Of a stretch of 46,471 nucleotides of DNA, positions 35,440-42,814 are shown in pieces (within the stretch, counting starts at the first letter, position 1; each line of letters starts with the position of its first letter). The DNA is taken from NCBI GenBank assembly GCA_029864565.1, contig JAOTTD010000014.1, positions 1 to 46,471 on the forward strand, in the 5' to 3' direction. This DNA comes from Thermoplasmata archaeon. GTDB taxonomy: Archaea > Thermoplasmatota > Thermoplasmata > UBA10834. The translations under genes and the position numbers were made by a program. The notes under the pieces were generated by a model, which saw nothing but the letters and a program-made list of their open reading frames with translations, ran no database searches and was not told the origin of the DNA.

Positions 35440-35864
35440 ACAACCGAAGGCAGTCCAAGTTCGAAGAAGTGGTCGGAGAGAGCTTGAATCACGAATATCA
35501 GAGACACACCGATCAGCGATATGAAGATAGATGCGAGCCAATCATCTGGAACCGCCAGTTCCTCAACCATCACGAACCGCACAACCGCTATCAGGAATAC
35601 GAACGAAATTAACAGCATCAGCCCTGAGAGGTCGTGGTCCCTTCCCAAATCACTCACTAGAGGCACCACGAAAACGAAAACCAATGATACTACAAGGATT
35701 CGCAAGAAATATGGAGGGGTCATCGACCAATCTTGGGCAACAAGAGCCGCGCTCATGTAGAACACCACAATCACTATGAGAATCGTGACGCACAGAAGAA
35801 GGATATCGGTAGCATCCATTGTAACACCATAGCCTATCATTGTCTTATTCTTATCCTCAGGCAC
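35436..35864 (-). CDS. four-helix membrane protein, unknown function
   Basis: 142 residues. The GTG at 35864 overlaps the stop of the upstream gene by 8 bases, suggesting coupling; an ATG at 35819 (MDATDILL) would begin closer to the first helix. Four hydrophobic segments lie at about 18-40, 53-75, 80-102 and 112-134, separated by short loops, one with SDLGRDHDLSG. No family is recognised. Its stop overlaps the end of the convergent M24 gene by 4 bases. Confidence 0.7.
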   Translation of the reverse strand: MPEDKNKTMIGYGVTMDATDILLLCVTILIVIVVFYMSAALVAQDWSMTPPYFLRILVVSLVFVFVVPLVSDLGRDHDLSGLMLLISFVFLIAVVRFVMVEELAVPDDWLASIFISLIGVSLIFVIQALSDHFFELGLPSVV

Positions 35865-36459
35865 GCTTCTTCCGAGGCATCGCGAGTATCTCCCTTATCT
35901 CAAATTTGAAGAAATCGTTTGCGTGTGCAGGTCTGACAACACAAGCGGTATCAGCCCCCTCCCCGGTGCCTCCAATCACAATTATCTCCTCGTCCCCGCA
36001 CTTAAGCGCACCACTGTCAGCGGCCATCACAGAGACCTCGACGCAGACTTTCATTCCATGTCCGAAAAGAGTACGAAGGGTTTGCGAAACCACTTCAACT
36101 CTGGATATTCCGCCAAATTTCTTGGTAAATGATCTCTCAACTCCAGATAGAACATGCGATGCCCTGACCAACTTGGCGCTGGAGCGTTCGATCTTCGTCT
36201 CGATGCTGCGGTCCATGTCCAACGCGCCCTCGCCCGAGAAACCCGCGTGCGATGTCACTACGATCAGGTTTGAACATGAGTTCGACCATCGGTCTATCGC
36301 CTTCAATGCAGTTTCCCCTGAGTTGCTGGCAACGACAATCGTCTTTATCCCCGTCCTCTTCAGACATAGCGACACCACATCCATCAGCTTCTCGGTATTC
36401 TTCTTCCCAGGTCTATCGAAGTAGGTAATCTCTGCAACGGACATGCCATTCTCCGGCAT
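35857..36459 (-). CDS. pyruvate-kinase C-terminal-domain-like protein
   Basis: 200 residues. The sequence fits the alpha/beta domain found at the C terminus of pyruvate kinase but stands alone: TIVVASNSGETALKAIDRW, LIVVTSHAGFSGEGALDM and the glycine loop VIGGTGEGADTACVV. Stand-alone forms are found in archaea without a known reaction; they could bind a phosphorylated or nucleotide ligand. The start at 36459 is chosen with a TATA-like stretch at 36474-36486; an ATG at 36444 is also possible. It is coupled to the membrane protein downstream. Confidence 0.75.
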   Translation of the reverse strand: MPENGMSVAEITYFDRPGKKNTEKLMDVVSLCLKRTGIKTIVVASNSGETALKAIDRWSNSCSNLIVVTSHAGFSGEGALDMDRSIETKIERSSAKLVRASHVLSGVERSFTKKFGGISRVEVVSQTLRTLFGHGMKVCVEVSVMAADSGALKCGDEEIIVIGGTGEGADTACVVRPAHANDFFKFEIREILAMPRKKRA

Positions 36460-36548: not shown

Positions 36549-37556
36549 GTGACGATATTCTTCAACGAACGATTCTACGATCACATACAAACACCGTTCC
36601 ATCCGGAGTCTCCGGAACGTTTGAGAGGAATAGTCAAAATGCTCAGACATCATAATCTATGGAGGAACGTAGTCGCATCAGAGATCGGTGACCCCAGCCA
36701 CTTGAGATTGGTCCACGAAGAGAACTACATAGAACTCATAAAGAATTGCGACGAAGGCGGCCTCACAATGGAGACTGCCATTCATCCAGATACCTTCGAA
36801 ATTGCCGCCCTCTCCGCTGAGTGTGGCATCGACGCCGCAATTCACTCGAGAGATAAGGGCGTTGCGACCTTTGCGCTGACCAGGCCGCCGGGCCATCATG
36901 CTGGGCCAGACTATGGCATGGGATTCTGCTACTTCAACAACATTGCGATTGCCGCAGAGCATCTCCTGAATGAGGGAGATGAGAAGATTGCGATAGTGGA
37001 CTTGGACGTCCATCACGGAAATGGCACCGAACACGCATTCAAGGACCGCGCTGAAGTCCTTTATGTTTCGACCCACCAATCCGGCATATTCCCCGGGACT
37101 GGGAGCGTGGATTTTCTCGGAACAGGCAACGGCGAAGGGTTCACAATAAACCTGCCATTCGCATCTGGATGCGGTGATTCCACTTATGACGTCGCGTATT
37201 CTGAGGTCGTCATTCCCATTCTAAGACAATTCAAACCTGAGGCCATACTCATATCCTTCGGCGTTGATGGACACTACAGAGATCCGCTGGCATCGCTCAG
37301 CCTTTCATCGGATGCACACCTGAGAGTTGCCAAAGAACTGCTGAAGTTCTCCATGCAATGCGGGAAACGCCTGACATTCTTCCTGGAAGGCGGCTACGAT
37401 GTGCCCGCTCTCTCCGAGGTGGTTGCGGCCATCGTAGGTGCAATCAATGGAGTCGATGTTCCCCTGGAGTACACTGACATCATAGACAACAGCTGTCTCG
37501 GCAGAGGTGCGATTGACAGGTGCACCAGGAACGCGTCCGAATACTGGGATCTATAG
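36549..37556 (+). CDS. histone-deacetylase-family protein (AcuC/HdaH-like)
   Basis: 335 residues from a leaderless GTG at 36549. Zinc-dependent arginase-fold deacetylases share TRPPGHHAGPDYGMGFCY, VDLDVHHGNGT, the metal Asp in FGVDGHYRDPLASL, and the EGGYD tyrosine; all are present. Its substrate may be acetylated lysine on chromatin or metabolic enzymes, acetyl-polyamine or another acetylated metabolite. No histone or acetyltransferase gene is in the window. Its stop codon lies in a 14-base palindrome shared with the convergent CBS gene. Confidence 0.9.
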   Translation: MTIFFNERFYDHIQTPFHPESPERLRGIVKMLRHHNLWRNVVASEIGDPSHLRLVHEENYIELIKNCDEGGLTMETAIHPDTFEIAALSAECGIDAAIHSRDKGVATFALTRPPGHHAGPDYGMGFCYFNNIAIAAEHLLNEGDEKIAIVDLDVHHGNGTEHAFKDRAEVLYVSTHQSGIFPGTGSVDFLGTGNGEGFTINLPFASGCGDSTYDVAYSEVVIPILRQFKPEAILISFGVDGHYRDPLASLSLSSDAHLRVAKELLKFSMQCGKRLTFFLEGGYDVPALSEVVAAIVGAINGVDVPLEYTDIIDNSCLGRGAIDRCTRNASEYWDL

Positions 37557-37560
37557 ATCC
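37547..37560. repeat. 14-base palindrome at the convergent gene ends
   Basis: GGATCTATAGATCC is a perfect palindrome that contains the stop codon of the deacetylase-like gene (TAG at 37554-37556) and of the CBS gene (CTA at 37551-37553 on the plus strand). It may simply reflect back-to-back stop codons; it is too short and loopless for a stable hairpin. Confidence 0.4.
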
Positions 37561-38708
37561 GGCTTCCTCTTCCTGGCAGCACGCTGTTTTTCGTGGTCCT
37601 TCCTTATGTTCTTCTCCATCATGTCGAGTACGGAATCCAAGGACCTGTAAAGATGCCAGTCGATTCCCTTGGAGTAGTACATGCCTTTGTCGGTCGTCAA
37701 CCTGGCGCCCAGACTGTACTTGTTCTTCAGACCGTCCTGGTGGTATGCTGTCACATGCACTGAGAATACCTTCGGAGATTGGATCTTATCGATACGCTTC
37801 ATCGACTTGCCAATCAGCTCGTACATCGTTTCGTACACTTCAGGGTCTTCCACGTCGAGTCCTGTTATCTGCACATAGACTCCCTCCTGTGGCCTGAGAC
37901 TGATAACATGCTCCATTATATCCGTCTGTGAAACCACGCCGACGAGCTTGCCACCGTCCGCAACGAAGACGGTCGATAGGTTCTTGGACAGCATAATCGA
38001 TATTGCCTTGTTCAAAGGATCATTCGGAGCCACGTTCACAGGGCTCTTGTTCATGACGCTCCCTACTCTGACATCAGCGGGCTCTCTGTCCCCTCTGACT
38101 TCATTTGGAGGCTTCGACGCTCGTGGAGACCAGATAACGTCCATGATCTCTGTCATCCCAATCGCTCCGATGAGCTTCGCGTCCTCCTCGATAACGGGGA
38201 GAGTCTTCTCGTTTAGCCCCTTCATCAAGATCTGAGCTTTCCTGACTGGCTCTTCCTTGGTTACCGAAACCGGAGCCTTGCTCATTAGGGAGTCGACTTT
38301 CTTTCCCTTGAGCTCGTCCATGCCAGAGAGAACACGGATGATGTCGGTCCTCGATACGAAGCCAACGAGCTTATTGTTCCTGACGACTGGAGCGCCTCTG
38401 ACGCCAGTCGACATCAGCTCCTCTGCGGCGTTGATTATCGTCATATCCTCCTCGAGCCTTGGGCATGGAACCATTATGTGCTCCACTTTGGCCGAGAGCG
38501 GGAGATTTCTCCTAGACAACAGCGAGTAGTAGCTTACAAGACCGAGCGGCTTGTCGTTATCAAGAACTGGTATCTCCCTTACGCGCCCCTTCTTCATCTT
38601 TGAGATGACATCGGAGACTGTCTCTCCCTTGCTGACGGTCATTCTTGGGGTGCCCATGACGTCCTTCACGAGCAGCCTACTTATCTCAGTGGCCTTCAAT
38701 TCAAACAC
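37551..38708 (-). CDS. four-CBS-domain protein with HPF/S30AE-like C-terminal domain
   Basis: 385 residues, GTG start. Four CBS units are seen at about 14-70, 76-130, 138-190 and 215-272, recognisable by DVMGTPRMTVSKGETV, HIMVPCPRLEEDMTI, SLMSKAPVSVTKEEPV and SVMNKSPVNVAPNDPL. CBS pairs usually bind AMP, ADP, ATP or SAM. The last about 105 residues do not match CBS; their pattern (VYVQITGLDVEDPEVYETM, FSVHVTAYHQDG, NKYSLGARL, HLYRSLDSVLDMMEKNI) follows the beta-alpha-beta-beta-beta-alpha order and the small basic C-terminal tail of ribosome hibernation factor HPF. It may be a nucleotide-sensing ribosome hibernation factor. A TATA-like site is at 38780-38791. Confidence 0.82.
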   Translation of the reverse strand: MFELKATEISRLLVKDVMGTPRMTVSKGETVSDVISKMKKGRVREIPVLDNDKPLGLVSYYSLLSRRNLPLSAKVEHIMVPCPRLEEDMTIINAAEELMSTGVRGAPVVRNNKLVGFVSRTDIIRVLSGMDELKGKKVDSLMSKAPVSVTKEEPVRKAQILMKGLNEKTLPVIEEDAKLIGAIGMTEIMDVIWSPRASKPPNEVRGDREPADVRVGSVMNKSPVNVAPNDPLNKAISIMLSKNLSTVFVADGGKLVGVVSQTDIMEHVISLRPQEGVYVQITGLDVEDPEVYETMYELIGKSMKRIDKIQSPKVFSVHVTAYHQDGLKNKYSLGARLTTDKGMYYSKGIDWHLYRSLDSVLDMMEKNIRKDHEKQRAARKRKPDL

Positions 38709-38825
38709 ATCCTGGCAGACAGTAGCTTGAGAAACAGACCTGCTTGTTCATGCTCGTAAGCACCAATCACGCTACTTCTTCTAAATACTTTGCTTACCTG
38801 GCGAACTCCGGCCGGCTTCGTCAAT

Positions 38826-38836
38826 GATTTATATGC
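38826..38836 (+). promoter_or_regulatory. TATA box of pgk
   Basis: GATTTATATGC is about 37 bases before the ATG at 38868. Confidence 0.55.
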
Positions 38837-41817: not shown

Positions 41818-42792
41818 CTATTTGTTGGTTGCCGAACGACGCTCGACATTGGCGTGCACATGCGCGATTCGCGTAGGCTCGGGAATGCGATATCTGGTGA
41901 ACCTTCGCACCGTCAAGAGCGCTTGCCTTTGCGAAATGCCGTGTCCCGGCGATACGTATATGGGTTTCGTCCCACTGTTCGAGAAAGAGTACCCGCAAAC
42001 CCTTCCCCCGATCGCGAGCGCACGCGCGCCCCTGTGGGCTGAACCCACGGCTGTGCCACAAAGGAGGCTCTTCGCCACGCCAATTGTGGGCAAATCGAAG
42101 GCCACTCCCGCGTGGCTGGCGATGCCGAAGCGCTCCGGATGAAGAATCCCATGGCCATCGAAGATTAGGGTTGTGCCATCATCCAGCAAATTCATCAACT
42201 GAGCAACGATTGGCAACTCTCGAAATGCGAGGAAGGTCGGAATGTAAGGAAATCTCGCCTCGGAAGCCGCAAGCAAACTCTCCCGGACCCCTTTGGTCTC
42301 CGCGTCGAACACCACCACGGACGCGTACGCTCGATTTTCGGCGTATGATACGTCGACACCAGCAACACTCGAGATATTGATGTCAGACGATGGAACCCTG
42401 ATAGATCTTCGCAGGGATTCTTGTCTCTTCCTCAGAGCCTTCAATGGCCTGGGCGAGCGAAAGTCCGTAAAGAGGTGTTCTTCGAAGTCTTGAACACGAC
42501 CATTGCGAATGCTAATGCCTTCCTTCCTTAGCAGAGCGACATCGTCGTTGGTTCCGTCAGGGCTCGAATGGCCGCCAATCCCTCCATCGGACCTGACGAC
42601 CCTCCTGCATGCAGTTCTCTGGGTGTTCATATTCCTACTCACGGCCAATCCGACGAATCTCGCCGCGATTGGGTCGCCTAGCGCCTTCGCGATTTCACCA
42701 AAGGTGGTCACCATGCCGCGGGGCACCTGAGCGACGAGATCGTATGTTTCCTTCCACATGTCCGGAAGGTCCTCAATCGACTCGTGAGCCAT
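41818..42792 (-). CDS. alkyltransferase-endonuclease V fusion protein
   Basis: 324 residues from the ATG at 42792. Residues 10-110 are an O6-alkylguanine-DNA alkyltransferase-like winged-helix domain (VPRGMVTTFGEIAKALGD, VGLAVSRN) with Cys62 in TACRRVVRSDGG where the usual motif is PCHRV. Residues about 115-324 are endonuclease V: GVDVSY (Asp147), FRELPIV (Glu192), FDGHGILHPERFGIASH (Asp212) and VAKSLLCG. EndoV nicks near deoxyinosine. The fusion is known from Ferroplasma and Thermoplasma. It shares its promoter region with the divergent radical SAM gene. Confidence 0.93.
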   Translation of the reverse strand: MAHESIEDLPDMWKETYDLVAQVPRGMVTTFGEIAKALGDPIAARFVGLAVSRNMNTQRTACRRVVRSDGGIGGHSSPDGTNDDVALLRKEGISIRNGRVQDFEEHLFTDFRSPRPLKALRKRQESLRRSIRVPSSDINISSVAGVDVSYAENRAYASVVVFDAETKGVRESLLAASEARFPYIPTFLAFRELPIVAQLMNLLDDGTTLIFDGHGILHPERFGIASHAGVAFDLPTIGVAKSLLCGTAVGSAHRGARALAIGGRVCGYSFSNSGTKPIYVSPGHGISQRQALLTVRRFTRYRIPEPTRIAHVHANVERRSATNK

Positions 42793-42814
42793 TGTCAATC
42801 GTCAGCATCTGTGC

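Follow-up and report, generated by a model that had tools for sequence, protein, structure and literature searches.

Archaea carry a hibernation factor of the HPF type that is fused to an adenylate-binding module. This factor, HibA (P. abyssi Q9UYR4 and T. barophilus F0LKU5), was described by Madru et al. (Nat Commun 2026, published 27 April 2026; PMC13324472) as four CBS domains joined to an HPF/RaiA domain; it is usually annotated as merely a CBS domain-containing protein and was detected in 47% of archaeal genomes, in all major lineages. In cryo-EM structures of P. abyssi HibA on the ribosome, the C-terminal domain, whose HPF fold bears two archaeal-specific insertions, occupies the mRNA/tRNA channel of the 30S subunit, with the C-terminal end of the protein at the mRNA exit channel, and the CBS module adopts any of three positions at the 50S subunit, one of which puts a loop in the peptidyl-transferase centre (PTC). 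HibA inhibits translation in vitro, and a T. barophilus strain deleted for hibA has a lag of 4 instead of 2 hours and ~60% less 70S in stationary phase; a role in ribosome hibernation is established experimentally for the family. For AMP, ADP and ATP, the Kd values of the P. abyssi CBS module are 12 µM, 65 µM and 113 µM, respectively, each module having a single adenylate site, located between CBS3 and CBS4. Native P. abyssi HibA-ribosome complexes showed no nucleotide, the ribosome-bound states were largely unchanged upon addition of AMP or ATP, apart from an additional, weak state in the presence of ATP, and nucleotide gating of HibA was left open by its authors (PMC13324472).

The domains of HibA recur in HVO_2384 of Haloferax volcanii, described in 2025, which, unlike the ribosome-assayed HibA, is known from its co-purification with an inactive variant of an acetyltransferase (Pat2), and for which a coupling of translation to energy status had already been suggested (PMC12607858). 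Bacterial HPF, RaiA and protein Y have a ribosome-binding domain homologous to the C-terminal domain of the protein described here, but the bacterial HPF forms are without a CBS module, and bacterial long HPF (lHPF) has an extra C-terminal domain of its own. Dri of Pyrobaculum, with two CBS modules (i.e. eight CBS domains), and the CBS-only SriA-SriD of Methanosarcina (named in PDB titles) are CBS modules that bind archaeal ribosomes and have no HPF/RaiA domain; a literature search did not find a paper for SriA/SriB. Finally, HhpR, a regulator of transcription, consists of four CBS domains only, and the presence of its group (CM-3) does not exclude that of HibA (PMC13324472).

The window, i.e. 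the whole stretch of 46,471 nucleotides of a Thermoplasmata archaeon that was analysed, contains a gene for a protein with the same succession of domains as HibA:

37551..38708, minus strand: hibA ortholog, 385 aa, GTG start, stop codon at 37551-37553; PDB 9sr9_H matched at residues 26-380, E = 2e-21
38514..38669, minus strand: CBS1 (PF00571, 42.3 bits), without the acidic ligand residue (S62)
38325..38486, minus strand: CBS2 (PF00571, 44.4 bits), with S119-R120-T121-D122, conserved in the class
38130..38297, minus strand: CBS3 (PF00571, 36.2 bits), with E187 at the ligand position
38073..38123, minus strand: CBS3-CBS4 loop, residues 196-212, equivalent by alignment mapping to the PTC loop (190-207) of P. 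abyssi HibA
37905..38066, minus strand: CBS4 (PF00571, 51.8 bits), with D263 at the ligand position
37581..37841, minus strand: Ribosomal_S30AE (HPF/RaiA) domain (PF02482, 26.2 bits, over the cut-off), with HPF-type fold matches
37554..37613, minus strand: basic C-terminal helix and tail, residues 366-385, from the sequence; the helix extends to residue 381 in the model

Eight relatives from the same family, when aligned, share the GTG start. In Pfam, the four CBS stretches at the N-terminus are recognized at E = 9.5e-44 and Ribosomal_S30AE at residues 290-376 at E = 1.4e-4. With a Pfam cut-off of 23.7 bits, the S30AE score of the full-length protein is just below the threshold (22.9 bits), whereas that of the C-terminal domain alone is above it (26.6 bits), as is the score of the list, which was obtained in a search of the whole genome. 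S30AE is matched by every sequence in the C-terminal alignment (20/20). Nothing follows the HPF domain but the basic tail KNIRKDHEKQRAARKRKPDL, and Pfam gives no match to the C-terminal domain that sets bacterial lHPF apart.

The predicted structure agrees with this assignment. AlphaFold2, run with five sequences, gave a mean pLDDT of 81.8 for the full-length protein and of 86.8 for the C-terminal domain modelled alone, which is built in the order strand, helix, strand, strand, strand, long helix. The matches in the fold search with the full-length model included CBS proteins solved on archaeal ribosomes (SriA/SriB and SriD of M. acetivorans, Dri of P. calidifontis) and the adenylate-binding protein AMPK gamma; because CBS proteins swamp such a search, the C-terminal domain was also modelled and searched by itself. 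With Foldseek, the isolated domain returned 32 matches among solved structures at E<=0.001, all of them (32/32) of the HPF, RaiA or protein Y type. At the sequence level, a search of the PDB with the single C-terminal domain gave weak matches only, and the profile of 20 relatives brought chains of HPF, RaiA and protein Y to the top, together with 9sr9_H and 9l96_a. The former, a chain of 392 aa with both modules, is also the best PDB sequence match of the window protein; it was deposited under the molecule name ‘Dehydrogenase’, and from its length, domain order and the position of its loop we infer that it is P. abyssi HibA, the 9sr9 series being likewise ascribed to HibA. The 9sr9 entries, absent from the matches in a fold library with entries up to 8 April 2026, appeared in the sequence search only. 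The 9l96 series holds a second solved chain with CBS and HPF-like domains (406 aa), for which a paper on an archaeal CBS-HPF structure was not found in the literature search. Thus, the earlier note was right, with exact coordinates, in reading 37551-38708 as four CBS domains followed by an HPF/RaiA domain with a basic tail, on which Pfam, profile and fold agree, and the absence of an S30AE fold, which it had named as refuting its proposal, is excluded at the level of structure prediction; its doubt over how much of this family is described in archaea has been overtaken, this kind of protein being already known, published as HibA and widespread in archaea, so that the finding is not a new one.

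What the window contributes is one ordinary ortholog and the near-universal presence of the family in the class. A contig scan yielded only four close relatives, and genomes from the whole class were searched in its place: a relative is present in 114 of 120 genomes, in most cases matched over nearly the full length, and in 73 of the 74 of good quality, a presence far beyond chance. The window protein is the only S30AE match in its own genome. A second full-length copy was found neither there nor in four other genomes of the genus, and a second, diverged copy occurs in three genomes of the family. Sharing 46-49% identity with the window protein, these copies group in one clade (100/98 support) next to that of the main family, which points to an old duplication; since the clade is their own, they have no bearing on the window gene. 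A homologue of archaeal SBDS is encoded on another contig of the same genome.

Compared with P. abyssi HibA, the window protein has a similar length (385 versus 392 residues), the same order of four CBS domains then HPF/RaiA, the acidic ligand residues of CBS3 and CBS4, and a PTC loop between these two domains, which maps nearly one to one. The differences are an identity of only 22% over the aligned stretch, the CBS2 motif, which reads S-R-T-D here and S-D-M-A in the P. abyssi chain, and about five extra residues in P. abyssi that, in the alignment, follow helix 1 of the HPF domain; the linker and hairpin of this domain differ by a few residues in length between the class and P. abyssi, as judged from the sequence alignment of those two only. 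Relatives throughout the class, a conserved gene order and the presence of the PTC loop make the window gene a typical ortholog.

Sequence, profile and predicted fold support the CBS4-HPF fusion as a ribosome hibernation factor, and the window protein is, with high probability, an ortholog of HibA that silences ribosomes as the P. abyssi and T. barophilus proteins do. No experiment on a Thermoplasmata member was found in the literature search, and binding to the ribosome, inhibition of translation and maintenance of 70S are carried over to the window protein from P. abyssi and T. barophilus by analogy. By this analogy, the N-terminal disc of four CBS domains would fill, on the 50S side, the space left free by tRNA, from where the CBS3-CBS4 loop could reach the PTC; together, both modules would block the binding of mRNA and tRNA, and the idle 70S would be held together until growth restarts. 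The contact with the PTC is less sure than binding to the 30S subunit, since conservation of the loop within the class is loose. The model has one of its lowest confidences at residues 196-209 of this loop (pLDDT below 50), which fits a loop ordered only on the ribosome.

The CBS module probably binds adenylates, AMP best, and their binding may tune the availability or release of HibA, a step not seen in the studied homologue. Among 70 class sequences, D263 of CBS4 is kept in 68, position 187 of CBS3 is D or E in 66, and in the CBS2 motif R120 is found in 66 and D122 in 60; the ligand-position acid of CBS1 is not conserved. A true energy-charge switch, in which engagement of the ribosome by the HPF domain depends on AMP or ATP bound in the CBS module, would be in line with the class-wide conservation of the acidic ligand residues of CBS2, CBS3 and CBS4, with the affinities of the P. 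abyssi module and with the resemblance of the full-length fold to AMPK gamma. Nevertheless, in P. abyssi the native complexes are without nucleotide, the conformational classes on the ribosome are unaltered by AMP or ATP save for the weak additional ATP state, and the authors themselves take no side (PMC13324472), which makes such a switch unlikely; it is a live hypothesis, at present unsupported, also by the reconstituted ribosome system. Of the nucleotide-gated hibernation factor put forward in the earlier note, the hibernation factor stands, on the evidence of sequence, profile, fold and the published family, and the gating is unproven, while of its switch tying translation to energy charge what holds is the preference of the P. 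abyssi module for AMP over ADP over ATP, without a clear effect of AMP or ATP on ribosome binding (PMC13324472). The motif S119-R120-x-D122, absent from P. abyssi, makes a second adenylate site in CBS1-CBS2 of Thermoplasmata HibA possible; that this site exists and that the nucleotide control unseen in P. abyssi operates here is rather improbable. In lineages that keep more of the ligand residues, the window bears on whether nucleotide control of HibA exists there.

It is very improbable that the protein regulates something else, either transcription, as HhpR does, or partners in DNA replication, with a repurposed HPF-like domain. Four-CBS proteins such as HhpR do control transcription, HibA of Thermococcales co-purifies with proteins of DNA recombination and replication (as cited in PMC13324472), and HVO_2384 co-purified with the inactive acetyltransferase variant mentioned above (PMC12607858). 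Against this, residues of the HPF domain are conserved across the class (G283 in 70/70, H318 in 67/70 and W351 in 65/70 sequences), the predicted C-terminal fold is plainly that of HPF, and the same genome encodes, on another contig, a separate four-CBS protein, standing alone and closest to HhpR, with a full-length match to the HhpR model at 153.7 bits (cut-off 520). The co-occurrence of HibA and an HhpR-like protein in one genome agrees with the published observation on CM-3. The window protein itself was rejected as an HhpR, the model covering only part of its CBS module at 50.9 bits, against the same cut-off of 520, and the HPF domain being additional; nor is it a Dri, as it has four CBS domains and S30AE. 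That an unrelated alpha/beta domain merely resembling HPF follows the four CBS domains, as the slightly short full-length S30AE score might hint, is refuted by the S30AE matches of the domain alone and of all its aligned relatives and by the HPF-type proteins returned by the profile and fold searches, and has a negligible probability.

The gene order around hibA is kept across the genus, the family and the order, with a phosphoglycerate kinase gene divergent from hibA and a gene for a protein of histone-deacetylase fold convergent with it. Between hibA and the phosphoglycerate kinase gene, TATA-like elements of both divergent genes are conserved:

38781..38791, minus strand: candidate BRE/TATA element AAAGTATTTAG, 72 nt upstream of the hibA GTG, a putative promoter
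38827..38835, plus strand: candidate TATA box ATTTATATG of the divergent phosphoglycerate kinase gene, likewise putative in function

The first of these, AAAGTATTTAG, is identical in seven of eight aligned relatives and has one substitution in the eighth.

Elsewhere in the window, positions 35857-36459 (minus strand) encode a protein of 200 residues whose sole match is to the C-terminal domain of pyruvate kinase (PK_C), the catalytic part being absent, and whose relatives likewise adjoin the deacetylase-fold gene. At 41818-42798 (minus strand), a DNA-binding domain of the methylguanine methyltransferase type (PF01035) and endonuclease V (PF04493) are joined in a single reading frame.
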